Origin: Thermospira aquatica
GTDB taxonomy: Bacteria > Spirochaetota > Brevinematia > Brevinematales > Thermospiraceae
NCBI RefSeq assembly: GCF_023525255.1
Contig: NZ_CP073355.1
Location: 1,426,001 to 1,490,000 of the forward strand
Reading direction: 5' to 3'
DNA length: 64,000 nt
A program made the translations under genes and the position numbers. The notes beneath the pieces are model-generated. The model was given only the letters and a program-made list of their open reading frames with translations. It searched no databases and was not told the origin of the DNA. Shown piece by piece: positions 10,839 through 34,362 of the stretch (the stretch's first letter is position 1; every line of letters starts with the position of its first letter).

Positions 10839-10868
10839 TTGACATTACTGCCACTCCTATGCTATACT
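10839..10868 (+). promoter_or_regulatory. Transposase promoter inside the IS
   Basis: TTGACA (10839-10844), 18-base spacer, TATACT (10863-10868). The transcript would begin at or within a base or two of the transposase ATG (10875), so the mRNA may be leaderless. Confidence 0.5.
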
Positions 10869-10874
10869 CTACTC

Positions 10875-12749
10875 ATGTTCGTTAAACCTATATCCATACC
10901 TAACAGAAAGACTGGTAAACGGTATACCTACTACCGCCTCTGTGAGAGTTATCGCCTCGGTAATACTGTAAGACATAGAAATATTCTCAACCTTGGTAAG
11001 CTCGAAGAACTTCCTGATAGATCAGACCATAAAGTTCTTGCTGACAGGATTGAACAGATTGTTTACAAGAGGCCTTCCCTTTTTGTTTCACAGATACCCC
11101 AAAAGATAGAAAACCTTGCTCAGCATTATGCCAGTATTATCATACAGAAGGGGTTACTGGATATACCAAAGGAATCCCTTGTAAGCACAGAGGCAGCAGA
11201 TGAGGGGTCTCATGACTATCAGGAGGTAGATGTAAACAGTCTTGAGCATAATGATGCTCGTGAGGTTGGTGCTGAGTGGTTATGCAGGCAGGCACTTGAG
11301 GAGTTAGGGTTATCGAGATATCTGGGTGAATTGGGGTGGGAGGAGAGATGGATTAAGATGGCGATGATATACATAACTGCCCGTGCGGTATTTCCTGCTT
11401 CTGAGCACAAGACAGAGGAATGGCTGAAGGAAAACAGTGGGTTAAGTGAACTTTATGGGGTAGAGCCTGGGCAAGTAAGGCACCATCTTTACAAAGTGAG
11501 CCGAAAGCTTTATCAAGCCAAAGAGGAGATAGATCGATGGATGGCCAGACGCACTGGGGAGTTATTTACACCGCAAGACAAGATAATACTCTATGATCTA
11601 ACGAATCTCTATTTTGAGGGGAGAAGAGGGATAGTGAGAAGGCGAGGTTTGGTCGGAGCAAAGAGAGGCGTAATGATGCAAAGCTTATGGCATTGGGATT
11701 GGTGACAGACACGATGGGTTTCATCCGATACAGCCATATCTATGAAGGAAACATCAGGGACAGTAAGACTTTGAAGAAGACTATTAAAGACATGGAGGAG
11801 CGATATCCTTCGGAGGGTCACTGTCCTGTGATAGTAATAGATGCAGGGATAGCCACTGAGGAGAATCTCAGGATGTTAGGAGCAAAAGAGGGACTATGTA
11901 TGTGTATCCCTTGCGAAGATGAAAGACAGTCATATAGCTGAGATAGAGGAGAAGGGCAGAAGGCTTACAGACAGGAGAGGCAATGAGATTTTTGCCCAAT
12001 GGGTAGAAGGAAGGATGAACAGGGTTTTGTATATAAAGAGCAAGGGAAGGCGCTCAAAGAGCAGAGCATGGAAGAGGAACTCAAAGAGGTATGAAGAGGG
12101 GCTGGAGTCTATCAAGCGGGGGATAGAGAGGAAGGGAGGGATAAAGAGGATAGAGAAGGTATATGAGAGGCTTGGGAGGTTAAAAGAGAGATACCCCTCG
12201 GTGAACCGTCTGTACGAGGTGAAGATAAAGGAGAAGGATGGGATAGCGACGGAGATTAGTGGAAGAGGGTGGAAGGAGTGAAGGTGCCTGGGGCATACTT
12301 TATCCGCACCACCTCAAGGGGAAGATGAAGAGACGATATGGAAGATATACAACACATTGAGGGAGATAGAGGGAACATTCAGGGTATTGAAGAGTGATCT
12401 GAAGATGAGACCAGTGTTTCATCAAAAAGACATCTATTCAGAGGCACACATCTATGGGAGTATCCTTGCGTATATGGTTGTAAACACCATAAGGCAAAAG
12501 CTCAAGGCGAAGGGGATAAGAGATGATTGGAGTAATATAGTCAGGAGGATGAACACGCAGAAGCTTATTACCAGTGAGATGAAGACGAGGACAGGGAGGA
12601 CGATTTACATAAAGAAATGCAGTAAACCCATCGTTCGTGTAAGGGAGATATATCATGCCCTGAACTATAAGGAATGTCCCTTCTTTCAGAAAAAATCCGT
12701 GTTACCTAAAAGGGAAAATCGAAAAGATGAAAGCCTTGATACATCTTAG
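10875..12749 (+). pseudogene. IS1634-family transposase, broken by several frameshifts
   Basis: The reading shifts frame near 11690 and 11930 and is lost between 12281 and 12357, splitting one transposase of roughly 600 residues into four pieces. The N-terminus (MFVKPISIPNRKTGKRYTYY) and the DDE elements are recognisable: LYDLTNLYFEG for the first Asp, IVIDAGIATEENL for the second, REIEGTFRVLKSDL for the Glu. The element is unlikely to move by itself. Confidence 0.82.
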
Positions 12750-12853: not shown

Positions 12854-14119
12854 TTACAGAATATTCTTGACATTGTCACAAAATATTTCAATGATTTTTT
12901 CAAGATCTTTTGCCTTGTGTTTCATAGAGAGAAAACACCCTTCAAAGCAAGAAGGAGGAAAAAGAATGCCATTTTCTAGAAGTTTTTTATAAATCTTTTG
13001 AAAGGCTTGTATATCCTGTTGTTGAGCATCATGGAAGTTGTCAACCTCTTTTGATGTATAAAAAACAGAAAACATGGTGGAAAACACGCTGAGAGTGTAA
13101 GGAAGTTTTTTTCTTTGCCATTCTTTTTGAAAATCTTTTAATAGCTCTCTCATCGATGTGTAAATGGAGGGATACCTTAAAAGAAAATGAAGAACAGAAA
13201 ACCCAGCTCTCATAGAGAGGGGATTTCCTGAAAGAGTGCCAGCTTGGTACACATTGCCCTCGGGGGCGAGATGTTTCATAATTTCTTCTTTTCCTCCAAA
13301 GCATCCTATGGGCAATCCGCCTCCGATGATTTTCCCTAAAATTGTAAGATCCGGTTGAATTCCAAAAAGCTCCTGTGCTCCTCCCAGGGCTACTCTAAAG
13401 CCTGTAATAACCTCATCAAAAATTAGTAAGGTCTCATACTCTTTGCAGAGTTTCTCAATGGTGAACAAAAAGGTTTCGTGAGGAAGGATTACCCCCATAT
13501 TGGCAGGTATGGGTTCAAGGATTACACAGGCTATTTCTTTTCCATGTTTTTTAAAAATTTCTGTGAGCTTTTCAGTATTATTAAAGGGGAGTGAGAGAGT
13601 TTGGGAAATAACTTCTGTCGGTACTCCTTCACTGGAGGATTCTTTTATTTCGCTGAGTCCAGAACCACTCTTCACAAGGAGACTATCGGAATGGCCATGG
13701 TAGCATCCATCAAATTTTACGATGAATTTTCGTTTAGTAAAACCTCTGGCAACCCTTATGGCACTCATCACAGCTTCTGTTCCAGAATTGACAAAGCGCA
13801 TTTTTTCCATGGAAGGGAAAGCTTGTTGAATGAGTCGCGCTAAACGGGTTTCGTAAAGATGACAGAATCCAAAGCTTGTTCCCTTTTGGAGGGCTTTGTG
13901 AAGTTCCTTTTTCGGGATAGGATGATTATGCCCCAAAATGATAGCTCCCCAGGAAAGGCAGTAATCAGTGTATTTGTTTCCTTCGTAATCATAGAGATAT
14001 TTTCCTTTTGCTTTCTTTGCAAAAAGAGGGGGAAGATTGACCATTTTAAAGCTTCTGACAGGGGAGTTGACCCCACCTACCAGGTAACGTTGGGCTTCTC
14101 TATAAAGATTGGTATTCAT
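12854..14119 (-). CDS. hemL: Glutamate-1-semialdehyde 2,1-aminomutase
   Basis: A 421-residue PLP enzyme converting glutamate-1-semialdehyde to 5-aminolevulinate. GGVNSPVRSF near the N-terminus and GCYHGHSDSLL are HemL hallmarks; the PLP lysine lies in TILGKIIGGGLP. It is the last gene of the long sulfur/siroheme operon and overlaps the hemB-like gene by 20 bases, with GGAGG seven bases ahead of ATG 14119. Being cotranscribed with sulfate-assimilation genes, its main product here is probably siroheme. Confidence 0.95.
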   Translation of the reverse strand: MNTNLYREAQRYLVGGVNSPVRSFKMVNLPPLFAKKAKGKYLYDYEGNKYTDYCLSWGAIILGHNHPIPKKELHKALQKGTSFGFCHLYETRLARLIQQAFPSMEKMRFVNSGTEAVMSAIRVARGFTKRKFIVKFDGCYHGHSDSLLVKSGSGLSEIKESSSEGVPTEVISQTLSLPFNNTEKLTEIFKKHGKEIACVILEPIPANMGVILPHETFLFTIEKLCKEYETLLIFDEVITGFRVALGGAQELFGIQPDLTILGKIIGGGLPIGCFGGKEEIMKHLAPEGNVYQAGTLSGNPLSMRAGFSVLHFLLRYPSIYTSMRELLKDFQKEWQRKKLPYTLSVFSTMFSVFYTSKEVDNFHDAQQQDIQAFQKIYKKLLENGILFPPSCFEGCFLSMKHKAKDLEKIIEIFCDNVKNIL

Positions 14120-15053
14120 CGAGTTCCTCCAGTATCCAGGGTGTAAAGTAAGTCACGATTTTTGAAGCTCCTGCCCGTTTTATGGAAAGAAGCACTTCGT
14201 ACACTATTTCTTCTTTGGCGAGATGATTTTCCACGAGAAAGTTGATAGCAGCGTATTCTCCAGAGACGTTATAAGCGTAAATAGGGACTGTAAAACGTTC
14301 TTTTGCTCGATGGATAATATCAAGATAACTGAGAGCAGGTTTAATCATGATCATCGTAGCCCCTTCATCAATGTCTGCCTCAATCTCTTCCATGGCTTCT
14401 TCTACATTTGCGTAGTTCAATTGGTAGGTTTTTCTATCACCATATTTGGGGGTTGATTTTGCTATTTCCCTAAAAGGACCATAAAAGTTTGAGGCATATT
14501 TGGCACTATAAGAAAGGATAGGAATGTGGACAAAACCATGTTCGTTAAGGGTTTTTCGGATGTAGTAGACTCTTCCATCCATCATGTCTGAGGGCGCTAC
14601 AACATCTGCACCGGCTTTTGCATGAGAGAGGGCTATTTTTGCCAGGATTTCACATGTTGCATCGTTTTCACCAATGTGACAGTGACCATCTTCCGTGTAA
14701 GAGCAAAGACAGACATCAGTGATAATCTCAATGTTTTGGAGAGATTGTTTTATTTCTCGGATGGCAGTCTGAATAATCCCCTCTTCATCATAGGCCTGTT
14801 CTATACCTTTTTTATCTGGTACCCCAAAGAGAAGGATAGAACGAAGCCCTTTTTCTTGGAGTTTTTTGATATACTCGATCGTGTAGTCAATACTCATGCG
14901 GGAGATATTTTTCAGAGAAACAATAGCCTCTTTTCGTTTTCTACCGGAAACGATGAAAAGGGGAAGAATAAAATCTTCTCGTGAGAGAAAGGTTTCCTGA
15001 AATTTAAGGCGGGTTGCAGGGTCTTTTCTTCGGTCGCGAAAACGTTTAAACAT
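14100..15053 (-). CDS. hemB: Porphobilinogen synthase
   Basis: About 317 residues from ATG 15053, chosen because AAGGAGG lies seven bases upstream; an upstream in-frame start lacks such a site. It condenses two 5-aminolevulinates to porphobilinogen. Both active-site lysine contexts are visible (SYSAKYASNFYGPFR and MIMIKPALSYLD). The cysteines in CLCSYTEDGHC match the zinc-binding type rather than the magnesium-only type. Confidence 0.95.
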   Translation of the reverse strand: MFKRFRDRRKDPATRLKFQETFLSREDFILPLFIVSGRKRKEAIVSLKNISRMSIDYTIEYIKKLQEKGLRSILLFGVPDKKGIEQAYDEEGIIQTAIREIKQSLQNIEIITDVCLCSYTEDGHCHIGENDATCEILAKIALSHAKAGADVVAPSDMMDGRVYYIRKTLNEHGFVHIPILSYSAKYASNFYGPFREIAKSTPKYGDRKTYQLNYANVEEAMEEIEADIDEGATMIMIKPALSYLDIIHRAKERFTVPIYAYNVSGEYAAINFLVENHLAKEEIVYEVLLSIKRAGASKIVTYFTPWILEELDEYQSL

Positions 15054-15081
15054 ACGTTGTTCCTCCTTGGGGGAGATGTTT

Positions 15082-17031
15082 CTAGAGAGATTTTTCAAGA
15101 ATTATGGTTCTTTTTTCCTCTCCTAATTCGGCAAGTTTTTTGAAGGTGGTATTTCCTCCTACATAAATTATAAAGTGAGGAGGAATTTTTTCATAGATTT
15201 TTAAAAAGGCATCCACACAACTTCCCGAAGCAAAATAGATGCCGTTAAAACAACGAAGGTCGAGTTTTTTTTGAGCCAAGGGGATGGTTTTATAAAGAGG
15301 AAGAGGGGTGACGTTGGGAAGTTTGGTGATAGAATTGTTGCTTAAAAGGGAGCAGGGATAGAGGATTTTGGATGAAGATTCTTTTATCTTGAGGAGTTCG
15401 GCAAGAGAAAAAGAATCAAATGTGGGAGGGAGAAAAACATCTTGGTAACCAAGTGTCAGTAATCGTTCTCTGGTTCTTGGGCCAATGGCGTAGATCCTAT
15501 GTTTTGTTATACCAAAAAGAGTTGTCCATCTCTCTGCGGCAAATTCAGAAGTAAAGACCAACACATCGTAAAGATGAGGAACAATTTCGTTTGAAGGATC
15601 CATTTTTTCTCTCTGGATGAGAGGATAATGGAGAATTTTGCCGGGTATATTGGAAAGGGTTTCAAAGGGATGGAGCCCTGTATAGAGGATTTGTTCCTGA
15701 GGTACAACGTGTTTGGCGACGTTTCCGGCAATAATAATTAAGGGAGAGGTAAAGTTGTTAGAGGGGAGTTTTTCGATGGTGCTTGTTGCAATCTTTTGTT
15801 GGGGGAGAGATGCATCTTGAACGAAAAGAACGGGACAGGTTTCTGGGAAGATGTGACGAAGGTGAGAGGTAATTTCTTTTTTTGAGGTTGAACCCATGTA
15901 AAAGATATAACTACTTATTGTTTTCTTGTGTTCTTTTCCCTTTAAATGGCCACTTTCTATAATGATTCTGCTCCCATACTTTCTATTGGTGAGAGAGAGT
16001 GTAGCGTCTGCAGCAGCAGCGATCGCTGAGGTAATTCCATTGATAACCTCCACCGAAACAAAACGCTGGAGAAGATAATCTATTTCTTCTTGAGCTCTAC
16101 CGAATAGAAGAGGATCTCCACCATGTAAGCGAACGACTCTTTTCCCCTCGAGAGCATACTGGTAAAGTTGTTTGTTGATTTCATTTTGTTCGTAAAAATG
16201 CTTCCTATTTCTTTTCCCTACATAGATAAGTTTTTTGGCGCTGTGAGCAAAAGAAAGAACTTCTGGGTTTATAAGATCGTCGTATAAAACCACATCAGCG
16301 TAACTCAGGCATTCTTTTGCTTTGAGGGTGAGAAGAGAAGGATCTCCTGGTCCACCTCCGACAATATACACTTTACCGTAGAATCTTCTTTCGTCGATAG
16401 AAAAAAAGAGCTTTCTTAATTCTGGTCTATCGCTTCTTGCGGTTACGGCAAGTTTTCCCTGTAAAGGGTGAGTTTCAAAGGGAAGGATTTCTGCGATTTT
16501 GTCTTCAATATGGAGTCTTTCAAGGGCACATAAGGCGACAACTATGGCGTCTACTTTCCCTTGATCAACAAGGGCAATTCGCTCTTCGATGGTTCCACGT
16601 ATGGGGACAACCTTCAGATCTTTTCGTAAGCCGAGAATTTGAGCCTTTCGTGCTGGAGAGGAAACACCAATTTTTGCACGAGGGGGGAGGTCAAGGAGTT
16701 TGCGGTTATTGCGACTCACGAGAGCATCTTCTTGAGATTTGCCTTTCGTGAGAGCTATGAGTGAAATGTTATAAGGAAGAGGAAAGGGCAGATCTTTAGC
16801 GGAGTGGATAGCCACATCTGCCTTGTTAAGAAGGATGGCCTCGTCAAGTTCTTTTGTGAAAAAATCTTGGGGGAGATCTTTTCGCATGAGGGATATTTTT
16901 TTATGTTTATCTCCGTAAGACAGGATTGGAATAAGTTGGTATTCAAGCTTTTCGGGAAGCTCACTGAAAACTTCTTCCACCTGTTTGAGAGAGAGGGGGG
17001 AATTCCTCGCAATAACCTTTATTGTTTCCAC
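15082..17031 (-). CDS. Fusion: truncated HemC - uroporphyrinogen-III methyltransferase - HemD
   Basis: A 649-residue tripartite protein. Residues 1-216 resemble domains 1-2 of hydroxymethylbilane synthase (IARNSPLSLKQ, AIHSAKDLPF, RGTIEERI). Residues 218-455 are an SUMT/CobA domain (VYIVGGGPGDPSLLTLKA, RLHGGDPLLFGR, ITSAIAAAAD). The remainder is HemD-like. The third HemC domain, carrying the cysteine that anchors the dipyrromethane cofactor, is absent: the sequence passes from LRKLFFSIDERRF directly into SUMT. Together the parts would take porphobilinogen to precorrin-2 for siroheme. The start is GTG with AAGGAGG upstream, and its first 71 bases overlap hemA. Confidence 0.88.
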   Translation of the reverse strand: METIKVIARNSPLSLKQVEEVFSELPEKLEYQLIPILSYGDKHKKISLMRKDLPQDFFTKELDEAILLNKADVAIHSAKDLPFPLPYNISLIALTKGKSQEDALVSRNNRKLLDLPPRAKIGVSSPARKAQILGLRKDLKVVPIRGTIEERIALVDQGKVDAIVVALCALERLHIEDKIAEILPFETHPLQGKLAVTARSDRPELRKLFFSIDERRFYGKVYIVGGGPGDPSLLTLKAKECLSYADVVLYDDLINPEVLSFAHSAKKLIYVGKRNRKHFYEQNEINKQLYQYALEGKRVVRLHGGDPLLFGRAQEEIDYLLQRFVSVEVINGITSAIAAAADATLSLTNRKYGSRIIIESGHLKGKEHKKTISSYIFYMGSTSKKEITSHLRHIFPETCPVLFVQDASLPQQKIATSTIEKLPSNNFTSPLIIIAGNVAKHVVPQEQILYTGLHPFETLSNIPGKILHYPLIQREKMDPSNEIVPHLYDVLVFTSEFAAERWTTLFGITKHRIYAIGPRTRERLLTLGYQDVFLPPTFDSFSLAELLKIKESSSKILYPCSLLSNNSITKLPNVTPLPLYKTIPLAQKKLDLRCFNGIYFASGSCVDAFLKIYEKIPPHFIIYVGGNTTFKKLAELGEEKRTIILEKSL

Positions 17032-17941
17032 AGCTGCCTCCTTTTTCTTCCTTTATTTTTGTAAGAGAGAAATAGAACTTTTCAGTTTCTTCTGAAATTA
17101 TCCGAAGTGCCTTTTCTTTTTCTTCTTGTCGAGTTTGTAAGGATTGAGTGACCATTTTTTCACTATCGTGAACGTCGAAGTAGAGGATGTTTTTCCTCGT
17201 CTTTATTTCTTTTTCTACATCAGGGGGGACGGCGAGATCAATGATAAGAAGCTCTTTGTTTTCAGGCATATCGCTTGTTTTTATAATAGGATGAGGAGCA
17301 CTCGTGGTAGTGAGTAAAACATCGGTTTGTCGTAACACATTTTTGAGAGAGTTAAGAGAAAATACTTGAGCATTGTATTTGAGCGCTAATTCTTTAGCTT
17401 TCTCATAGGTTCGATTACCAAGGTAGATTTGTTTCACTTCATGTTTATGGAAATATTTTAACAAGTCTTCGTTAATTCTATTAACTCCAATAATCGTGAC
17501 ACGGAGATTTTGAAGATTTTTAAAATAATATTTTACTATTGTGAATGCTGCAAGGGCATGGGAGAGGGCACCCTTACTGATATTCGTTTTTTGTCTTACC
17601 TTTTTTCCAACATGAAAGGCCTGTTGAAAAAGGATATGAAGGATTTTTGATACGGTCTTGTTGTGAATGGCTTGTTGGTAGGCTTGTTTTAGCTGGTGAA
17701 AGATGTAATTCTCTCCGACAAGAGGAGACTCTACTCCAGACGCCAATCCGAAAAGATGTTGAATAAGAGAAAAAAGAGTGTCTTTTGGAGGGTGGGCTCC
17801 AGGTTCATCGTAGTAAAGTTCTACTCTATCACATGTCTTGAGCAGAATGTGATAGTGGGGGAGTGCTCGGAGAAGAGAATAGTAAAAGTTTTCTCTTTCC
17901 TCGATGGGAAAATGATAATCCATTCCCTTAAAACCCAGCAT
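16961..17941 (-). CDS. hemA: Glutamyl-tRNA reductase, short form
   Basis: A 326-residue enzyme reducing glutamyl-tRNA to glutamate-1-semialdehyde. The catalytic cysteine lies in LLKTCDRVELY (Cys37), followed by ASGVESPLVGE and the NADPH-binding part with VTIIGVNRINEDLL. The family is usually about 420 residues; the C-terminal dimerisation domain is largely missing, and the protein ends in a Gly/Ser/Asn-rich tail read from the overlap with the HemC fusion. It begins 14 bases inside the met8-like gene. Confidence 0.87.
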   Translation of the reverse strand: MLGFKGMDYHFPIEERENFYYSLLRALPHYHILLKTCDRVELYYDEPGAHPPKDTLFSLIQHLFGLASGVESPLVGENYIFHQLKQAYQQAIHNKTVSKILHILFQQAFHVGKKVRQKTNISKGALSHALAAFTIVKYYFKNLQNLRVTIIGVNRINEDLLKYFHKHEVKQIYLGNRTYEKAKELALKYNAQVFSLNSLKNVLRQTDVLLTTTSAPHPIIKTSDMPENKELLIIDLAVPPDVEKEIKTRKNILYFDVHDSEKMVTQSLQTRQEEKEKALRIISEETEKFYFSLTKIKEEKGGSCGNNKGYCEEFPPLSQTGGRSFQ

Positions 17942-18380
17942 TTTCCAAAAACTCCTTTATAGTATTTCTAAGAAAAACGCTTTGTTTTGCGCTTGTTCCG
18001 TTTGTTGTTACGGCTATACTTACATTCTTTTTTTTATAGATAGCAGGGGAGATAAAATCGCAGAATTCGGGGGAGTCGCACACGTTGACAAGGATAGAGA
18101 GTTTTTTTGCGTCTGCGGCAATTTGTTGGTTAAGAGTGTTGTCATTAGTACATGCATAGACAAGAAAAAATTTTTTAAGATAACATTTTTTATACGCTCT
18201 CTTAAGAAAGACACAATCGGAAAAATGGGTTTGGATTTCAGGGATAAATTCTAAAGCCAAAAAGGTAATATTTCTCGTATAAAGAGAAAGTATATTTGCC
18301 TTTTGAAAGGCTACCTTTCCTCCTCCTATAATGAGTATTTTTTTCCCTTCTATGTTTATGGCTATGGGTAAGAATGTCAT
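17928..18380 (-). CDS. Met8/CysG-N-like precorrin-2 dehydrogenase
   Basis: A 150-residue protein with an N-terminal NAD-binding motif (KILIIGGGKVAFQKAN) and NVCDSPEFCDFISPAIY, both characteristic of the siroheme-synthase dehydrogenase domain. It oxidises precorrin-2 to sirohydrochlorin and may also insert iron, as yeast Met8p does; no separate sirohydrochlorin ferrochelatase gene is visible in the operon. AAGGAGG precedes ATG 18380. Confidence 0.88.
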   Translation of the reverse strand: MTFLPIAINIEGKKILIIGGGKVAFQKANILSLYTRNITFLALEFIPEIQTHFSDCVFLKRAYKKCYLKKFFLVYACTNDNTLNQQIAADAKKLSILVNVCDSPEFCDFISPAIYKKKNVSIAVTTNGTSAKQSVFLRNTIKEFLENAGF

Positions 18381-18401: not shown

Positions 18402-20213
18402 TTAAAGGTAGTATTCTAAGGTTATTACCTCTTTATCAGCAAGTGTATTGATAATACCCTTTAGAATCTCTTCGTCGCCAATTTTTTCTGGATAACACAG
18501 GGTGTAAAAATCACTTTCAGGTAGGGGTGCTATTCCAATTCCAATCGTCAATATCTCATAGGGGGTGTTCAAAAGTTTGAGAATTTCCCATTCATGTTTC
18601 TCTATGTATGAGAGGTAGCTAATGAAAATAAGCCCGGCATCTGTAAGAATATGTGCAAGTTCTCCTAATCGTCTTATCTCCTCGTACCTTTGGTTTGTTT
18701 CAACAAAACTTAAATCCTGGTCAAGGCCGATGGCTATGGAATTTAAAGAAAGAAAGTACACATTTTTGGAAAGTTCAAAGAGCTTCTTTTCGAGAAGCTT
18801 GGCGATATGTTGGATTTTTTTGCTATTTTGTCCGGTAAGTAACACAAATTTCCCCTGGTGTTGGTTTCTTTTTTCTCTTTTCTCTTTTGATATGTATCCT
18901 TTCTCCCAAAGCTTTTCCCTTTTGGCGATTTCTTCTTCAAGAGAAACAAACTTATCTTCCAATGGTTCGAGGATAATACCGCATCCAGAAATATGGTATT
19001 CGTTAATTATTACAAACCTTGCTGTTTTTTTGAAGTCTTTTCCTGCATCAAATACCACGGGTTTGGTATTTTCGATAACGCAGACACCAATATCGTATCG
19101 TTCCAATTTATCCTTGTTCGTAATATTTTGGGGATCGGTAGAATCAATTACTTTCTGGATATTGGTGATTCTTAAAACCACATTTTGAGTTCCGATTTTT
19201 GCTTGATAGGGTTTATTTACGAGAAGAGGAGCGTTTTCTATCCAGAACACATGGGCAAGAAACCGTTTGGAAACGTAGGGTTCTTTTTCCCCTTCTTTGC
19301 TAAGTAACTCTCCTGGGGAGACGTAGTAAAAATTGTCACTAATGGTGAGTCCAATGCTTTGACCAGCGTACGCTCTCTCGAGAGAATGGGGGAATATTTC
19401 AATGGTTTCAATGTGACTTTTCTTTCCTGATGGGGAAAATACTACTCTGTCTCCTACGTGTATTTCTCCATAATCTATTGTTCCGGCAATAATTCGTCGT
19501 TCATCTTGCCCTTCGGTAAATTTATAGACATCCTGTACAAAGAGGCGAAAATCTTTTTTCGGACTTTCATCTTCAAGTTTCCATTGTTCTATTTCTTCGA
19601 GGAGTGTTCTTCCGGAAAACCAGCGAAGATTCTCCGATCGGTGAACAATGTTTTCGCCGTTTCTCGCGCTGATAGGTATGAAACTCACCTCTGTTATTCC
19701 AACGGAAGAGAGGAACCCTGTGTACTCTTCTTGAAGAGATCGAAAGATTTTTTCTTCGTAATTTACAAGATCCATTTTATTGACGGCAACACATACATTT
19801 GCTATACCTAAGATAGAGAGTAAATAACCGTGTCTTTTAGTGTTTTCTCGGATTCCTTCTTTGGCATCAATGACTATGATAGAAGCATCGGCTCGGGAAG
19901 CTCCTGTTATCATATTTTTTACAAATTCAAAGTGCCCTGGAGCGTCAATGATCAGGTAGTCTCTTTTGTCAGTTTTAAAAAAGCACCGAGCAGCATCAAT
20001 GGTAATTCCTTGAGCCTGTTCTTCTTTAAGGGCGTCAAGTAAAAAAGCATATTCAAAAACTTTTGCATTCTTTTCACAATATGCTTTTATAGCTTCAAGT
20101 TTGCCCTCGGGTAAAGAATTGGTATCTGCAAGGAGTCGTCCGATCAATGTGCTTTTCCCGTGATCTACATGTCCAATGCTCACTATGGTAACTTGTTCTC
20201 TTCTTTTAGTCAT
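18402..20213 (-). CDS. cysN: Sulfate adenylyltransferase GTPase subunit with degenerate APS-kinase domain
   Basis: About 603 residues from ATG 20213, chosen because GGGAGG lies eight bases upstream. Residues 1-430 are Cys[22 protein letters not shown] and NKMD, with an EF-Tu-like second part. With CysD it makes APS from sulfate and ATP, using GTP hydrolysis. Residues 445-603 follow the APS-kinase (CysC) fold ([31 protein letters not shown]), but the P-loop is ruined ([11 protein letters not shown] instead of GxxxxGKS/T), so kinase activity is unlikely. An APS reductase downstream would make the kinase dispensable. Confidence 0.9.
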
Positions 20214-20248
20214 ATACTTTGCCTCCCTTCTTCTCAGGTTTCCGAGCA

Positions 20249-21136
20249 TTACATATAGCCTTCTTTTCGCAGCGTTTCAAGGGTTCCTCCATCTTCTTTA
20301 TCCTGTTCTCTTCCCGCTCTTTCGGCAATTTTTGCAAATTTTCCTTCCTTTAACTCTTGAATAATCTCCTGCACGTTCTTTGCCGATGAGTCCACAGGTT
20401 GTGTACATGGGTAACAGCCGAGAGACCTGTATCGTTTTCCGTTGCCCCTATCAAAGTACAATGGGACAATTTCGATGTTTTCTCGGGCAATGTATTCCCA
20501 GATGTCTAGCTCGGTCCAGTCAAGAAGGGGATGAATTCTTATGTGCGTTTTTGGAGGAAAGCTGGTGTTAAAATAATTCCAGATTTCTGGCGGTTGTTCG
20601 GCAATACTCCACTCACTCTCTTCACCCCGCGGAGAAAAGTATCGTTCTTTGGCTCTACTTCCCTCTTCGTCTGCTCGGATTCCTACGATAACACCTTTGA
20701 AGGGTTCTTTGTTTCCCCATACTTCAAATTGACCTGTTTGATGGTTGAGTTTGTATCTTGGCCATTCGCCTGAAAGGGTATACTTGAGGGCATCGCTTTT
20801 GAGATATTTACAGCAGGTAATTCTATCGACATTTCCATCGGGAAAAGTGAGCTTTTTCTCAAGGATTTCTTTGTTTTCTCCGTAGATGAGATCAAGACCA
20901 AGTTTGAGAGCAAGCTTGTTTCGGTATTCAATCATTTCTGGAATTTTATAATGGGTATCGATATGGAGAAGGGGAAAAGGAATATGACCAAAAAAAGCTT
21001 TTTGGGCCAGGGTAAGGAGGACGGTACTGTCTTTTCCGATTGACCAAAGCATCACGAGATTTTTACTTTTAAATTCTCGATAAGCCTCACGAAGAATGAA
21101 AATGCTCTGTGCCTCGAGTTTTGACAATCTATCCAT
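20249..21136 (-). CDS. cysD: Sulfate adenylyltransferase subunit 2
   Basis: A 295-residue ATP-pyrophosphatase (adenylyl-transfer) subunit of the CysDN ATP sulfurylase. [19 protein letters not shown] carries the PP-loop, and [12 protein letters not shown] and [11 protein letters not shown] are typical. It lies ahead of cysN with a 35-base gap and follows cysK by nine bases; AAGGAGG precedes ATG 21136. Confidence 0.95.
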
Positions 21137-21145
21137 ACTTCCTCC

Positions 21146-22078
21146 TTACACATTATAATATTGGCTAATACTAAAGTATCTTTCACCGGTATCAGGAAGG
21201 ACAGTAACTACTCTTTTCCCTTTTCCCAATCTTTTGGCTACTTGGAGTGCTCCAAAAACGTTGGCTCCTGCCGAAATGCCTGCAAAGATTCCTTCCTCTT
21301 TGGAAAGTCTCAACGAGCTTTTGTACGCATCGTTATCGGAAACTGTTATAATTTCGTCAAGGATTTTTGTATTAAGGATAGAAGGGATAAAACCCGCTCC
21401 TATGCCTGGAATTTTATGAGGTCCTGGTTTTTGACCAGAGAGTACTGCAGAAGAAAAAGGTTCGATGCCAATAACTTTTATCTGAGAGTTCACTTGTTTA
21501 AGAACTTCGCCGACTCCCGTAATGGTCCCTCCTGTTCCAATTCCGGCCACAAAGGCATCCAGATCTCCCCCTGTTGCCTCAAGAATTTCTTGAGCTGTGG
21601 TTTTTCTGTGAATTTCAGGGTTTGCAGGATTATCAAACTGTCGTAGTATCAAAGCATTTTTGATTTTTTTCTGAAGTTCCAGAGCTTTTCTTATGGACCC
21701 TTCCATTCCTTCATACGCAGGAGTGAGAACCACTTCAGCTCCAAAAGACTTGAGGATGTAGATTCTTTCTAGACTCATCGAGTCTGGCATGACGAGAATA
21801 CATTTGTATCCTTTGATAGCAGAGACCATTGCTATCCCTACGCCAGTATTACCGGAAGTTGGCTCAATAATAGTAGCACCTGGCTGGAGAAGGCCTTTTT
21901 TTTCGGCATCTTCAATCATTGAAAAGGCAATTCTATCTTTGATGCTTCCACCCGGGTTGAAAGATTCTACTTTGACGAGTATTTCGGCCATGTTTTCTTC
22001 CACCAGTTTTTTAAGCTTTACCAAAGGGGTGTTGCCAATAAGTTCTAGAATACTCTCATAAATTCTCTGTTTAAACAT
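21146..22078 (-). CDS. cysK: Cysteine synthase (O-acetylserine sulfhydrylase)
   Basis: A 310-residue PLP enzyme making cysteine from O-acetylserine and sulfide. The PLP lysine lies in NPGGSIKDR, the phosphate loop is GTGGTITG and PTSGNTG is present. It provides the classical exit of sulfide from this pathway alongside the thiocarboxylate route. No serine acetyltransferase is encoded in the window. AAGGAGG precedes its ATG. Confidence 0.95.
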   Translation of the reverse strand: MFKQRIYESILELIGNTPLVKLKKLVEENMAEILVKVESFNPGGSIKDRIAFSMIEDAEKKGLLQPGATIIEPTSGNTGVGIAMVSAIKGYKCILVMPDSMSLERIYILKSFGAEVVLTPAYEGMEGSIRKALELQKKIKNALILRQFDNPANPEIHRKTTAQEILEATGGDLDAFVAGIGTGGTITGVGEVLKQVNSQIKVIGIEPFSSAVLSGQKPGPHKIPGIGAGFIPSILNTKILDEIITVSDNDAYKSSLRLSKEEGIFAGISAGANVFGALQVAKRLGKGKRVVTVLPDTGERYFSISQYYNV

Positions 22079-23579: not shown

Positions 23580-24293
23580 CTACCTTCTATGTAAGCCACA
23601 TTCTTTATGTTCAGGGTTTTCCCACCACCATCTTCCACTCCGTATATCTTCTCCTTCTTTTATGGCTCTTGTACACGGCATACATCCGATACTCGGATAC
23701 CCTTGGTCATGGAGTTTATTGTAGGGGATTTTGTGTTCCTTAATAAACTGCCATACCTTTTCTGTTGTCCAATTATAAAGAGGATTAAGTTTATATAATC
23801 CATTTACTTCATCCCACTCAATGGGCTGGATATTCTCTCTGGTGAGAGATTGTTCTCTACGAAGACCACATATCCAGCATTTTACTCCTCGTAACGCTCG
23901 CCTTAATGGTTCAACTTTTCTGACATGGCAACAAAGTTTTCTATTTTCAATGCTGTTATAAAAGAGATTGATTCCTTTTTCATTGACCATCTTTTCCACC
24001 TGCCGATAATCAGGGAAATATATTTCGTATTTAAAATCATAGCGGTTTTCTGTTTTTTCTATTGTAAAGTAGACTTCTTGAAACATTCGTCCCGTGTCAA
24101 TGGTAAATATTCGAACATTTTTATCTATTGACATAATCATATGAGTGATAACCTGATCTTCTACTCCAATACTCGAAGCAAAGGCTATTCTTGTTTTCCC
24201 GAAGGTTTGGATTCCCCATCGCAAAATATCAAAGGCATCCAGATTTTGAAGATGGGCGTTCCACTTTTCTATGTTTTTTTTCTTTTTCCACAT
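23580..24293 (-). CDS. cysH: Adenylyl-sulfate (APS) reductase, 4Fe-4S type
   Basis: A 237-residue enzyme reducing APS to sulfite. The cluster cysteines are present as the CC pair at 121-122 (KLCCHVRKVEPLRRAL) and the CxxC at 204-207 (SIGCMPCTRA). The C-terminal catalytic Cys232 lies in KECGLH. The CC/CxxC set and WWWENPEHK mark the APS-specific, not PAPS-specific, class. This agrees with the inactive-looking APS-kinase domain on CysN. AAGGAG precedes ATG 24293. Confidence 0.93.
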   Translation of the reverse strand: MWKKKKNIEKWNAHLQNLDAFDILRWGIQTFGKTRIAFASSIGVEDQVITHMIMSIDKNVRIFTIDTGRMFQEVYFTIEKTENRYDFKYEIYFPDYRQVEKMVNEKGINLFYNSIENRKLCCHVRKVEPLRRALRGVKCWICGLRREQSLTRENIQPIEWDEVNGLYKLNPLYNWTTEKVWQFIKEHKIPYNKLHDQGYPSIGCMPCTRAIKEGEDIRSGRWWWENPEHKECGLHRR

Positions 24294-24309: not shown

Positions 24310-26682
24310 TTATTTTTTTCGGATAAGGACAGAATAGTACTGCCCTTCTCGTTTTTCTACAGAAACAATTTCATGACCTTCTTCTTTTACAGAACCAGGG
24401 ACGTTTTGAATAGGCTCTCCTTCGTCAAGATATATTTCCAAAATTTCTCCTGCTTTCATAAGGGAGAGTTCAAGTTTGGTTTTCACAAAGTTCATGGGGC
24501 AGGCAACTCCTCGGAGATCTTTTATTCGTTTTCTTTCTTTCTTTTCCTCTTTTGTTTCTGTTAGTATTTTCTCTTGCATTTGGGAGGAAGATATTTTGTT
24601 CTTGGATTCAATATGAAACTGGAAATTACTATCCATGGCATCATAAAGCTTTTTTACTTTTTCGGATAACTCAATGATTTCATTTTTTAACTGGATTACC
24701 TCGCTTTTATCTTCCGTTAAAATGATGTTAAGAAAATTTTTAAATTTTTCGTCAATGTAGCCGCTTTCTATGAAGTGGGTAATAAAGGCTTTTACTATAT
24801 CTTTGAAATTTTCAGCCTCTACTCCTCGGGTAATCAAAAGCATTCTGCTTGAATAGTAGGCCAATTCTTTTATGAAAAGGACAAGCTCTTCTTTATTTTC
24901 TGTTGTCTCAACTTTTTCTCTAAATTCTCTTATTTTTTCCAGATCTTTTTCTATGAAGTCAAAGAATCCGGCAGAGCATTCTCCGGTAGATCGTTCTACC
25001 AGGCTGAAGAGAGTATCACTTCCCCAATCGAAGTAGTAGTTTTTATCTTCTCTGAAGGAGGGGACAGTGTAGCGGTGAAGGAGATTTTTTATAGTTTCTT
25101 TATTGTTCTCAAAAAAGTGTGTAAAATTTTCGTGGTTGTCAAGATTTCTTGAATATATTTCCAATAAGGAAGCCAGAAAATGGGGAAGATCTCTTGCACT
25201 TATTTCTCCTACTTTTTGGGCAAAATAAAGTCCTTCGGGAGTATTTCTATGGCCTGCGAGCACATAATAGGCAGGGTAAAGCTTGTCATCCTTTCTTGCT
25301 GCAAAACCATAAAAACCTATATCGCCAAGCCAATGTTGTCCGCATGCATTTGGACATCCTGAGATTCTGATAATGGGAAATTGAGTGTCCTTAATCTTCT
25401 CTTTAAAATTTTCTAATCTTGAAAGGACTTCTTTTGCTAGTTCTCTAGATAAGCAGAGCCCAAGTTTACATGTATCTGCTCCAGCACATACTGTGGTGTG
25501 GGTGGTAAAATAAGGTATCGTGGAAAAATTCTCTTTATAGAAGAGGTAAAATTGAGGGAGGGCATCTTGAGGTATATTTCTTACTAAAATATCCTGCATG
25601 GTGGTAAGTCTGATTACATTTTCCCCATAGTTTGACAGAAAATTCGCTGTTTTCTCGAAAAGATCCGAATCAATGTCTCCTAACAGAAGCGGATATTTGA
25701 TGGCATAAAGATCCTTCTGTTTTTGAGGGAAAACAAACCTCTCTTTCCATTTTTCAAAGTCCTTTTTTTCTTGTGGTTGCAATGATTTTGATTGTATAGG
25801 GATATTTTCTGCTTTGTTTTCAATCTCCACTGGCTTTATGATGAAATTGTCGTCTTTTTTTACTTCTTCATAATAAGAATCAAAAAGAGTTTTAAATTTT
25901 TCGCCACCAATTTCCTCCCATAAAAATCTTAAACGCGCCTTGTGTCTGTTTTTTCTATTTCCATGATGGAAAAAGAGTCTTTTGATAGCTTCTGCCACAT
26001 AGCCAACTTCTTCAGCCAAGATAAAATCGAGAAATTTTTTTGCAGGAGCCGATTTTGCACCCATTCCACCAGCGGTATATACCTCAAATCCCTTAGCGCC
26101 TTCTTTTTGTTTTGCGATGAAACCAACATCGGCAATTTTTGCATAGCCGTTGTCTGCTTCATATGAAGAAAAATTTATCTTAAATTTTCTCGGAAGGTTC
26201 CAACTGTTATCATGTCGGATCATTATCTCGGTTAAGCTTATAGCATACGGAGTCACATCAAAAACTTCTTTTTCATTTATGCCAGAATCAGCGGGAGCCA
26301 CAATGTTTCTCACCGTGTTGCCACCACCCCCTCTTGTAGAAAGCCCTGCAGCATAAAGTTCTCTGAGAATTTCTGGAACTTTTGAAATATCTTCTATGGA
26401 GTGGATCTGGATTTCTTGTCGCGTGGTAATATGAACTCTTCCACTTCCATATTTTTTAGCTACTTTTGCGATTATTTTCATCTGGGATGGTGTGATCAAA
26501 CCTGCAGGACAACGAACACGTATCATGTAGGTGTCACTTATTCTTTGTTCGTATATCCCGAAGGCAACTCTTTTAGCGCGGAACTTCACGGGATCAATTT
26601 CTTCTCTTGTCTTTTTTTGTATAAAAGTTTCAAGCTCCTCAATCTCAGTAACAAGCTTTTCTGGAATGCGATAACCAACCAT
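24310..26682 (-). CDS. Siroheme sulfite reductase fused to a TusA-like domain
   Basis: A 790-residue protein. The nitrite/sulfite reductase core has tandem ferredoxin-like and catalytic halves, with RGGGGNTVRN near residue 116 and siroheme/4Fe-4S ligands Cys399, Cys405, Cys443 and Cys447 (CAGADTC, SGCPNAC). Residues 500-700 are mainly helical and unassigned. Residues 720-790 are a TusA domain (DLRGVACPMNFVKTKLELS, Cys728). It should reduce sulfite to sulfide, and the TusA tail may accept or pass on the sulfur. The electron donor is probably ferredoxin, since no flavin domain is present. AAGGAGG precedes ATG 26682. Confidence 0.9.
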   Translation of the reverse strand: MVGYRIPEKLVTEIEELETFIQKKTREEIDPVKFRAKRVAFGIYEQRISDTYMIRVRCPAGLITPSQMKIIAKVAKKYGSGRVHITTRQEIQIHSIEDISKVPEILRELYAAGLSTRGGGGNTVRNIVAPADSGINEKEVFDVTPYAISLTEIMIRHDNSWNLPRKFKINFSSYEADNGYAKIADVGFIAKQKEGAKGFEVYTAGGMGAKSAPAKKFLDFILAEEVGYVAEAIKRLFFHHGNRKNRHKARLRFLWEEIGGEKFKTLFDSYYEEVKKDDNFIIKPVEIENKAENIPIQSKSLQPQEKKDFEKWKERFVFPQKQKDLYAIKYPLLLGDIDSDLFEKTANFLSNYGENVIRLTTMQDILVRNIPQDALPQFYLFYKENFSTIPYFTTHTTVCAGADTCKLGLCLSRELAKEVLSRLENFKEKIKDTQFPIIRISGCPNACGQHWLGDIGFYGFAARKDDKLYPAYYVLAGHRNTPEGLYFAQKVGEISARDLPHFLASLLEIYSRNLDNHENFTHFFENNKETIKNLLHRYTVPSFREDKNYYFDWGSDTLFSLVERSTGECSAGFFDFIEKDLEKIREFREKVETTENKEELVLFIKELAYYSSRMLLITRGVEAENFKDIVKAFITHFIESGYIDEKFKNFLNIILTEDKSEVIQLKNEIIELSEKVKKLYDAMDSNFQFHIESKNKISSSQMQEKILTETKEEKKERKRIKDLRGVACPMNFVKTKLELSLMKAGEILEIYLDEGEPIQNVPGSVKEEGHEIVSVEKREGQYYSVLIRKK

Positions 26683-27914: not shown

Positions 27915-27953
27915 GGTATTCCTCCTTTGCATTTGCTCTCTTTTCCAATATCT

Positions 27954-31680: not shown

Positions 31681-34362
31681 TCAAAGCTTTACCCAAACAT
31701 ACTCATCAACTTTCACCTCATAAACCTTTAACTTACCAATACCTTCATTTGAACATTCTCCCGTTTTCATATCAAAAGAGTAAAGATGGATGGGGCAGGT
31801 TATTTTCCCATTTCCTATTATTGCCTCTTCTATGGGTCCTTTTTCATGGGGACATATTGCTGAGGTTACAAAAATGTCTCCACTTCTATCTTTAAAGACA
31901 ACAATTTTTTCATCATTGATGGTAAAGGTGAGTCTATCAGGAGTTTTTAGTTTTCTTGTTTCGATTAATTGAACGTAATTACTTCCTTCTTTTCTTTCCC
32001 TGATTTCTGGAATTTCTTCTGGTTGCGTTTCTTGCCATGGATCTTTATAATTAGCAAGTGTCTCTTTGATACTTTTTTGTAATTCTTTTCTTATCGAAAC
32101 GTTTTCGATTACATCCTCTTTTATTTTTTCAAGGCCGATTCTTTCCACAAAGTAGCTCGTTCTTTCAAGGTAATTTGCATTTTTTCTATAATATTCAATG
32201 AATGCATCACAAAAATCAAAAACCTCTTCTTCCGTCTTAACAGTTGTAATTTTCTTACCTACAAATACTTTTGCTCCCCCATTACCTCCGACGTAAATAT
32301 CCCAGCCACCTTCTATAGCAACTATGCCAATATCTTTTATGGTTGCTTCAGCACAGTTTCTCGGGCAGCCACTTACTCCCATTTTGAGTTTTGCTGGATT
32401 CATTAAACCAGAGTATCTTTCGGCAATCTTTTTACCGAGTGAAATCGAATCGTTAAGCCCATATCTACAGAAATCACTTCCTACACAAGTTTTACATGCT
32501 CTAAAAGTCTTTGTAAATGCATGACCACAAGGCATATTCAGTTCATCCCAGACTTTTTTTAAATCTTTTTTCTTAATTGTGTATAATCCAATTCTATCCG
32601 ATCCTGTAATTTTTATAATAGCATTATACTTTTCTGCCACTTGAGCAATCCTTTTTAATTCTTCTGGCTTTATGACTCCTCCAAAGACAGCGGGAATTAC
32701 ACTGTATGTTCCCTCTTTTTGTATATTTCCATAATATCTATCATTTGGATGTCTTGCATCATTCTCTATTTCATAGTCACCCTTCCAGATATAGTTTAAC
32801 AAGAAATCAAGTCCCATCTGGGTCTTCGCATCATTTTTGGAACCTTCGATAGAATTTAAAACTTTACTTACCGATTTCAAATTGTTTTTTACAATATACT
32901 CTGTAAGCTCTTCTCTTGTCATAGGAATTCCCGGCACAAAGTATTTTTCAGCTGGATCTTCTCTTAACTCTCCAACTACGGAAACAAGAAGAGCTTTAAT
33001 CTTATTCTTACAATTTCCACAACCCGTTCCAGCACGTGTAGCATTCATTACTTTATAAAGAGTATCATTTCCATTCCTTATAGCTTCTCTAATTTTACCC
33101 GCAGATACACCATTACAATCACATATTTGGAGACTTTCTGGCCAACTTTCAGCCTCCATTATCATCTCTGAAGCCCTACTACCTGGGAATAGTATATCTG
33201 CTCTATTTGTCGGAAGTGGCATTTTTGTACTATAATATATAGAAATAGCATCAATATTTAAATCATCACCTACAAAGTTAGCACCGATAAGTTTATTCTC
33301 CCGTATAATCAGTTTCTTAAAGATTAAATTATGCTCATCAACATAATAAACAACTTCATCGCCATTTTCTTCAGAAAATTTTCCCATACTTATAACCGGA
33401 ATATCAGATTTTAACCTGGTTGGTGGCAATGGCGAAGGATGATATTTTAAATTATCATCTCGAGTAGCAAGATAACTTGCTAAAAGTCTTGCATGTTCAT
33501 AAACCTGAGAAACAAGGCCAAAAGTCTTCCCTGCAAACTCTATACATTCTCCTATCGCAAAGATGTCTGGATCATTGGTTCTTAAATGTTCATCTACTAA
33601 AATACCCTTGTTATAGTTGAGGTTGCATTTTTTCGCAAGATCAAGATTGGGTTTTATTCCGCAGCTAAAGAGTACAAGATCAACTTTAAACCTCTGTCCG
33701 TCCTTAAAAATTGCCTCTTCAATTCCGGCAGTAGACCCTAAAAATTCCACTACATAATTGGAAGTTACAAACTTGATTCCTTTTTGTTCTAATTTTTTCT
33801 GTAAAAATATGCCAGCTTGTTCATAGAGTTGCATTTCCATTATGGTTGGAGTAAGATGCGAGATGATAACATTTTTTCCAAGCTGTCTTATAACAAGAGC
33901 TAGCTCTAAACCAAGAAGCCCCCCTCCTACAACCATAACGAAAGATTTTCCTTTAAGCATCTCTTTTAATTTATATACATCATCAAGTGTTCGCATCGCA
34001 AAAATCCCGGGCAAATCAAGTCCTTTCACAGGTGGAATAAAGGGGTATGAGCCTGTGGCCAGGACAAGTATATCGTATGGAATATTTTCCCCATACGATG
34101 TGGTGACAACTTTTTTCTTTCTATCAATATCAACTACCTCAGTATTGAGTAAAAGATTGATGTTTCTTTCCTCATACCATTCGAGAGAATTTAAGAAAAA
34201 ATTATCGGGGACTTCATCTTTTAAAAGATAAATAAGTTTTGTTCTATCGTAGGTTGGTTCTTTTTCTTTGCTTATCACAGTAATTTTGAATTTTTTAATA
34301 TCCAATTCCTCACAAAGCTTTGCAGAAGCCATACCTCCGCCAATAATTACAACCCTTTCCAT
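31681..34362 (-). CDS. nirB: NirB-like siroheme reductase with BFD and Rieske domains
   Basis: An 893-residue protein. FAD/NAD(P)-binding oxidoreductase at 1-400 (VVIIGGGMASAK, VGGGLLGLELA); BFD-like [2Fe-2S] domain with Cys414, Cys416, Cys448 and Cys451; siroheme/4Fe-4S core with Cys626, Cys632, Cys666 and Cys670; C-terminal Rieske domain with Cys837, His839, Cys856 and His859. It corresponds to NirB plus NirD in one chain, with Rieske ligands intact. The usual reaction is NAD(P)H reduction of nitrite to ammonia. In this sulfur-controlled context sulfite is an alternative substrate. Its start is preceded by AGGAGG. Confidence 0.88.
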   Translation of the reverse strand: MERVVIIGGGMASAKLCEELDIKKFKITVISKEKEPTYDRTKLIYLLKDEVPDNFFLNSLEWYEERNINLLLNTEVVDIDRKKKVVTTSYGENIPYDILVLATGSYPFIPPVKGLDLPGIFAMRTLDDVYKLKEMLKGKSFVMVVGGGLLGLELALVIRQLGKNVIISHLTPTIMEMQLYEQAGIFLQKKLEQKGIKFVTSNYVVEFLGSTAGIEEAIFKDGQRFKVDLVLFSCGIKPNLDLAKKCNLNYNKGILVDEHLRTNDPDIFAIGECIEFAGKTFGLVSQVYEHARLLASYLATRDDNLKYHPSPLPPTRLKSDIPVISMGKFSEENGDEVVYYVDEHNLIFKKLIIRENKLIGANFVGDDLNIDAISIYYSTKMPLPTNRADILFPGSRASEMIMEAESWPESLQICDCNGVSAGKIREAIRNGNDTLYKVMNATRAGTGCGNCKNKIKALLVSVVGELREDPAEKYFVPGIPMTREELTEYIVKNNLKSVSKVLNSIEGSKNDAKTQMGLDFLLNYIWKGDYEIENDARHPNDRYYGNIQKEGTYSVIPAVFGGVIKPEELKRIAQVAEKYNAIIKITGSDRIGLYTIKKKDLKKVWDELNMPCGHAFTKTFRACKTCVGSDFCRYGLNDSISLGKKIAERYSGLMNPAKLKMGVSGCPRNCAEATIKDIGIVAIEGGWDIYVGGNGGAKVFVGKKITTVKTEEEVFDFCDAFIEYYRKNANYLERTSYFVERIGLEKIKEDVIENVSIRKELQKSIKETLANYKDPWQETQPEEIPEIRERKEGSNYVQLIETRKLKTPDRLTFTINDEKIVVFKDRSGDIFVTSAICPHEKGPIEEAIIGNGKITCPIHLYSFDMKTGECSNEGIGKLKVYEVKVDEYVWVKL

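Follow-up and report, generated by a model that had tools for sequence, protein, structure and literature searches.

Hydroxymethylbilane (HMB) synthase, HemC, is taught to need a cofactor fixed to a cysteine of its third domain. The cofactor is described in the same way in the available excerpts of four papers (PMC7242693, PMC3945110, PMC3949521, PMC7907807). The DNA analyzed here, a stretch of 64,000 nucleotides from Thermospira aquatica (the window), encodes a HemC fused to SUMT and HemD, and the original prediction stated that its HemC part lacks this domain. How, then, would the primer of tetrapyrrole synthesis be held? Three answers had been offered: a different way of holding the cofactor, an anchor from another domain, or a second HemC. 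The first has survived, and we extend it: the cofactor may be held, but not covalently, or may not be needed. With a probability of about 70%, the HemC part is predicted to be a working HMB synthase, whose primer does without the domain-3 thioether and is either non-covalently bound or absent.

Anatomy of the fusion and the search for a missing domain

The gene and its parts are the following.

15082..17031, minus strand: hemC (domains 1 and 2)-SUMT-hemD fusion, GTG start, 649 aa; AF2 model with mean pLDDT 89.3 and pTM 0.74
16384..17031, minus strand: HemC part, residues 1-216, domains 1 and 2 only (PF01379 at 4-206; pLDDT 91-98 per block)
16375..16404, minus strand: HemC/SUMT junction, residues 210-219, where domain 3 would be expected to start (from alignments)
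16792..16794, minus strand: codon of Asp80, the equivalent of catalytic Asp84 of E. coli (alignment to E. coli HemC)
16651..16653, minus strand: codon of Ala127, at the place of E. coli Arg131, a cofactor- and chain-binding arginine (excerpts of PMC3945110 and PMC7907807) lost in the window (alignment)
16528..16530, minus strand: codon of Cys168, the sole cysteine of the HemC part, at the place of E. coli Ala172 (alignment)
15712..16377, minus strand: SUMT (uroporphyrinogen-III C-methyltransferase) part, residues 219-440 (TIGR01469, 216.3 bits, cut-off 185)
15085..15693, minus strand: HemD (uroporphyrinogen-III synthase) part, about residues 447-649 (PF02602, 67.1 bits, cut-off 27.5)

As predicted, the HemC part lacks domain 3. 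In the window protein, the PF01379 match covers profile positions 1-206 of 207 (164 bits) and ends at residue 206, PF00590 begins at residue 220 and extends to 422, PF02602 occupies 464-637, and PF03900, the profile of HemC domain 3, gives no match at E<=1. Domain 2 thus passes into SUMT within a few residues (...LFFSIDERR-FYG-KVYIVGGG), as had been noted from the sequence. Only residues 207-219, 423-463 and 638-649 (13, 41 and 12 residues) are free of Pfam domains, and domain 3 of E. coli HemC comprises residues 222-313 (PMC3945110, excerpt), so that a domain 3, with its roughly 90 aa, would not fit anywhere in the chain. An undetected cysteine-bearing domain, which had been named as a possible refutation, was thus not found in this protein. 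The HemC part stops near E. coli residue 220, and the cofactor cysteine, Cys242, has no counterpart. A frameshift or pseudogene was also considered and rejected, because the frame is open across all three domains and the same junction is found in L032, L033, L034 and L043. Structure prediction, suggested earlier for the HemC residues, was made for the whole fusion, and its HemC blocks were modelled well.

Domains 1 and 2 are shared with canonical HMB synthase, or porphobilinogen deaminase (PBGD; E. coli HemC; PDB 1pda, 4htg, 7aaj). By alignment, window Lys79 and Asp80 correspond to E. coli Lys83 and Asp84, and five of the six cleft arginines (11, 131, 132, 149, 155 and 176) are retained together with Gln198. 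The exception is Arg131, which is Ala in the window motif SSPARKA, with Arg132 kept. Unlike E. coli HemC, the window protein has neither domain 3 nor its cofactor cysteine and Arg232.

The primer could be anchored from elsewhere in the genome. The window genome is one contig of 2,515,453 bases and 99.8% complete. PF01379 has a single match in it, the fusion gene itself, and PF03900 has no match even at E<=10, whereas the same search was positive in 11 of 14 control genomes. Both a second hemC and a detached domain 3 were thus rejected for this genome, and the suggestion that a second HemC exists found no support. PF03900 was also found in none of the 55 genomes holding domain-3-less HemC loci (43 genomes reached by locus, from 53 loci, and 12 Spirochaetota genomes, one of which is that of the odd locus L041 and one probably that of L066). 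It was found in 33 of 36 control genomes, taken from loci not classed as domain-3-less, one of the three negatives being the genome (G146) of another odd locus, L051; since the search missed these three, a detached domain 3 that has diverged too far from PF03900 could be missed as well.

A widespread class of HemC without domain 3

The original prediction treated the missing domain as a feature of one fusion, and its scale was overlooked. Ten domain-3-less HemC parts were used as queries in a pattern scan of genome contigs, which gave at least 80 loci (L052-L131). Domain 3 was called with an HMM made from 29 canonical Spirochaetota sequences, and further HMMs were used for the other parts. L001, L031, L066, L034 and L039 (copies, sequences with masked letters or a near-copy), the partial L092 and L105, and the weak match L051 were dropped, leaving 124 sequences. 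L066 looks the same as L033, from the window's order (G009), in length, scores and tail of its HemC fusion. Among the matches listed, 63 of the 124 sequences were called as lacking domain 3 and 61 were not. L041 was called domain-3-less but has a domain-3-like stretch without the cysteine, and its removal left 62: the window, nine other Spirochaetota and 52 loci. These 52, again among the matches listed, are labelled Bacteroidota (15), Omnitrophota (14), Kiritimatiellota (6), Chlamydiota (4), Lentisphaerota (4), and Margulisiibacteriota, Pseudomonadota, Verrucomicrobiota and Planctomycetota (one each), with five lacking a phylum; single labels may be wrong because many source genomes are MAGs. 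In architecture, the class comprises HemC alone, HemC-HemD, HemA-HemC and HemC-SUMT-HemD, and the free-standing members have frames of 216-247 aa with no fused domain.

Domain-3-less HemC is the rule in Chlamydiota. PF01379 is found in 126 of 151 genomes of this phylum and PF03900 in two, with HemC frames of 302 and 332 aa; in the other 124 HemC-bearing genomes sampled, no HemC but the domain-3-less form was seen. Among the best 30 Chlamydiota HemC loci, the domain-3 HMM left 28 without domain 3, and the other two are the 302- and 332-aa frames. Ferrochelatase is found in 131 of the 151 genomes and in 120 of the 126 with HemC (lists compared by hand). The same searches in Bacteroidota gave PF01379 in 244 and PF03900 in 237 of 296 genomes; thus few Bacteroidota have the domain-3-less form, and PF03900 detects domain 3 with good sensitivity.

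Judging from sequence trees, domain-3-less HemC is one monophyletic class. In a quick tree of 125 rows, a single branch (SH-aLRT 91) separated all 62 domain-3-less sequences from the rest. A more careful tree was made with Chlamydiota and Bacteroidota added and with six class-marked columns (60, 101, 131, 151, 154 and 172) removed; L041, L049, rows at least 62% identical to a kept row and rows less than 80% filled were left out, and 101 rows remained. The 51 domain-3-less rows, including the window HemC, again formed one side (support 99/93, and 98% of 200 bootstrap trees), and the two canonical Chlamydiota sequences, which have domain 3, lay outside. Convergence of relaxed columns was rejected as the cause of the clade, as it persists with the six columns removed. 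Midpoint rooting puts the class inside canonical diversity; because the trees are unrooted, they do not separate loss of domain 3 from never having had it.

The fold was examined with L089, a cysteine-free member of 228 aa. Its model (pLDDT 95.5, pTM 0.90) gave PBGD chains for all of the top 32 Foldseek matches (1pda, E 9.3e-24), and VIA-align superposed it on 4htg (Z 26.6, 222 aligned, 1.9 A) and on 1pda (Z 25.1, 213 aligned, 1.7 A, ending at residue 224). The predicted fold of L089 therefore matches domains 1 and 2 of PBGD. The class appears to have the fold and active site of known HemC but to lack a part that is regarded as defining.

Annotators already know of short HemC, since NCBIfam has a short model of 241 positions named hydroxymethylbilane synthase (NF002202/PRK01066), which we take to be the chlamydial HemC model. 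It aligns to residues 3-214 of the window protein with 170.1 bits, below its cut-off of 251 but slightly above the 167.1 bits of TIGR00212. Unlike Chlamydiota HemC of this type, which was seen free-standing or fused to HemD, the window HemC is fused to both SUMT and HemD. HMM libraries currently label such proteins plain HMB synthase, and no paper on domain-3-less HemC was found in a literature search that covered mainly papers free of subscription. The class also matters for how Chlamydiota, Omnitrophota and other groups obtain heme and siroheme.

Several relatives stand apart from the class. Spirochaetota HemC-HemD fusions L042, L046, L047 and L048 share with the window protein the joining of HemC and HemD on one chain, but at least the beginning of domain 3, with a GGC or AGC motif, is retained in them, and the trees place them outside the clade. 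L041 (5320-7188, G028) is a HemC-HemD fusion whose domain-3-like stretch has the cofactor cysteine replaced (LGIGLDAAFA, compared with LGGGCQVPIG elsewhere); PF03900 was not found in its genome, and this is possibly a second, independent loss of the anchor. L051 (5445-6383, G146) encodes a 313-aa HemC-like protein (PF01379, 46 bits) without the HSxKD motif, perhaps a relative with another function. In genomes of family f14 (e.g., G119:C1:871392-871592), frames of about 1038 aa match only positions 107-171 of PF01379 with about 25 bits, and several of these genomes show no other HemC match.

The active site and the primer

Residues were compared, in E. coli numbering, between 90 domain-3-less sequences (L041 excluded) and 94 canonical ones. 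R11, Q19, D46, H80, K83, D84, R132, R149, R176 and Q198 are invariant in the 90, and R155 and S81 are each found in 89; the scan patterns include K83, D84, R149 and R155 and so inflate the invariance of these four for L052-L131, though not for the 28 Chlamydiota and nine Spirochaetota sequences, which were found by Pfam profile. Other positions are released. R131 is kept in 57 of 90 (94/94 in canonical sequences), N151 in 25 (94/94) and R101 in six (89/94). Typical of the class are D60 for Gly60 (84/90 vs. 1/94), A173 for Gly173 (84/90 vs. 7/94), D67 (83/90 vs. 8/94) and E22 (79/90). Table 2 of PMC7907807 lists S96, K98, D99, R150, A189, R195, Q217 and G218 as the contacts of ring C2/S2 in the human enzyme, and gives human R149 (E. 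coli R131) as contacting the acetate of ring C1/S1 only. The positions matching the C2/S2 contacts stay conserved in domain-3-less sequences and R131 is loose; thus the site of coupling is retained, and a single contact of the ring closest to the anchor is free to be lost. According to an excerpt of PMC3945110, R131L abolishes cofactor binding and activity in E. coli, which counts against activity of the window protein, where this arginine is lost. The substitution of SSPARKA for SSLRRQA, which had been read as pointing the same way as the missing domain, is really present in the window protein, but it is secondary to the domain loss, since 57 of the 90 retain Arg131.

Since the catalytic Asp and the residues that hold the chain are intact, and since the gene is retained in genomes that use tetrapyrroles, the class should deaminate and couple porphobilinogen (PBG). 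The window fusion would then run three steps toward siroheme: PBG to hydroxymethylbilane, to uroporphyrinogen III, to precorrin-2. Deamination and coupling would take place at Asp80 in an ordinary cleft. The primer would be held only by the salt bridges of the cleft and would be either a dipyrromethane derived from hydroxymethylbilane or simply the first PBG; HemD and SUMT would then take over the product. Because free-standing and cysteine-free members exist, a thioether anchor is not a trait of the class as a whole. A Cys242Ser enzyme is reportedly active. For the ordinary apo-enzyme, preuroporphyrinogen is a faster primer than PBG (PMC3949521, excerpt).

Of the two forms of this non-thioether reading, the one without any dipyrromethane cofactor is put forward tentatively, at rather less than even odds. 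The first PBG would prime, four rings would fill the C1, C2, S1 and S2 sites, the cleft would set the length, and the bilane would dissociate without a hexapyrrole being cut. It might leave directly as hydroxymethylbilane, or first as aminomethylbilane, to be deaminated later at the same Asp; aminomethylbilane has in the past been discussed as an intermediate. If this is true, a textbook constant of tetrapyrrole synthesis is optional, and the cofactor is absent in nearly all HemC-bearing Chlamydiota sampled. Nature thus offers two designs of one active site, by which the role of the cofactor becomes testable as primed versus unprimed chain growth.

A covalent anchor may instead have been relocated, with dipyrromethane on Cys168 in the cleft wall of the window lineage. 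Cys168 is indeed the only cysteine of the HemC part, as the original prediction said, but its place is less singular than was thought: Cys occupies the column (E. coli 172) in 31 of the 90 domain-3-less and 4 of the 94 canonical sequences. Arg131 is gone in 23 of these 31, and E. coli A172 is in contact with the chain as it grows, at stages P4M-P6M of a simulation (PMC3945110, excerpt). On the other hand, 59 of the 90 have no Cys there, including 28 Chlamydiota sequences with A or S and L032 and L033, from the window's own order, with Ile; moreover, the HemC parts of L082, L083, L086 and L089 are free of Cys, as is the whole 228-aa frame of L089. As most members lack this Cys, a relocated anchor cannot be the mechanism of the class, and for the window lineage we regard it as improbable, Cys168 being a possible local anchor. 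A conserved replacement cysteine was sought and rejected, because no column reaches half of the 90, the best being 172 (31), 75 (24) and 218 (15).

An anchor supplied from the fused SUMT or HemD, or from a separate protein in trans, is very unlikely. The fusion does place both domains on the same chain as the cleft, and both contain cysteines, but the free-standing members of 216-247 aa, one of them Cys-free, exist without a fused domain. As for a partner in trans, none of the 55 genomes has PF03900, the neighbours of the standalone L071 all belong to known families (PAPS reductase, PiT, Prok-JAB, hemA, SUMT-hemD, hemB, hemL and ThiS-PALP), and inspection by eye of the ten listed standalone loci, with Pfam run on nine genes of L071 and one of L089, showed no recurrent orphan or partner protein. 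That the HemC part is an inactive relic or scaffold while another, unrecognised enzyme makes hydroxymethylbilane can hardly be credited: parts reported as needed in E. coli are missing (domain 3, which carries Cys242 and Arg232, and also Arg131 in the case of the window; PMC3945110, excerpt), but a relic would not be kept with catalytic residues strictly conserved across many phyla, HemC and siroheme reductases in the same seven of 18 genomes of the window's class, and ferrochelatase in nearly all HemC-bearing Chlamydiota.

The siroheme neighbourhood

The fusion gene lies in a run of minus-strand genes, with the following neighbours.

12854..14119, minus strand: hemL, glutamate-1-semialdehyde aminomutase (TIGR00713, 556 bits, cut-off 527)
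14100..15098, minus strand: hemB, porphobilinogen synthase (PF00490, NF006762)
16961..17941, minus strand: hemA, glutamyl-tRNA reductase, short form, 326 aa (TIGR01035, 221 bits, cut-off 209.55)
17928..18380, minus strand: Met8/CysG-N-like precorrin-2 dehydrogenase, 150 aa (PF13241; TIGR01470, 100.5 bits, cut-off 62.3)
18402..20249, minus strand: cysN(C)-like sulfate adenylyltransferase GTPase with a partial APS-kinase domain (domain search)
20249..21136, minus strand: cysD-like, PAPS_reduct fold (PF01507; named by size and neighbours)
21146-22078, minus strand: cysK-like (by eye)
23580..24293, minus strand: cysH-like PAPS/APS reductase (PF01507)
24310..26682, minus strand: sulfite/nitrite-reductase-type protein with C-terminal TusA, a siroheme user (PF01077, PF03460, PF01206)
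26697-27932, minus strand: FTR1 iron permease fused to Prok-JAB (domain search)
31681..34362, minus strand: NirB-like nitrite reductase with a Rieske domain, a siroheme user (PF07992, PF01077, PF04324, PF00355)

The run begins with the nirB-like gene, a Cys/Met-metabolism enzyme, ThiF, the FTR1 and TusA fusions and the cysH-like gene, and continues through a PiT-type permease, the cysK-, cysD- and cysNC-like genes, met8, hemA and the fusion to hemB and hemL. By gene content, the locus is one of siroheme synthesis beside two likely siroheme users. Among the 18 genomes of the window's class (G000-G017), PF01379 is found in G000, G003, G009, G011, G013, G014 and G016, and PF01077, the siroheme reductase, is found in exactly the same seven and in none of the other eleven, two of which (G001 and G002) belong to the same genus. 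A similar cluster is found in Omnitrophota L071, L072, L074 and L076 (with Pfam for L071), where a free-standing HemC is followed by SUMT-HemD; thus the window fusion joins genes that are neighbours elsewhere.

The window HemA has no C-terminal dimerisation domain (PF00745 is absent among its Pfam rows), nor does the 343-aa HemA of L071, and by domain content the window HemA is a second pathway enzyme in minimal form. The Met8-like protein has only its NAD-binding domain above the Pfam cut-off; CbiX has no match in the window genome, and no siroheme ferrochelatase was assigned. Unusual fusions occur in both clusters, FTR1 with Prok-JAB and the sulfite-reductase-type protein with TusA in the window and ThiS-PALP in L071, suggesting a sulfur-carrier route to cysteine. 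At 10839-12749 of the window, beside hemL and bioB, transposase-like frames were recognized by eye, broken into several ORFs, and they may be the edge of an acquired island.
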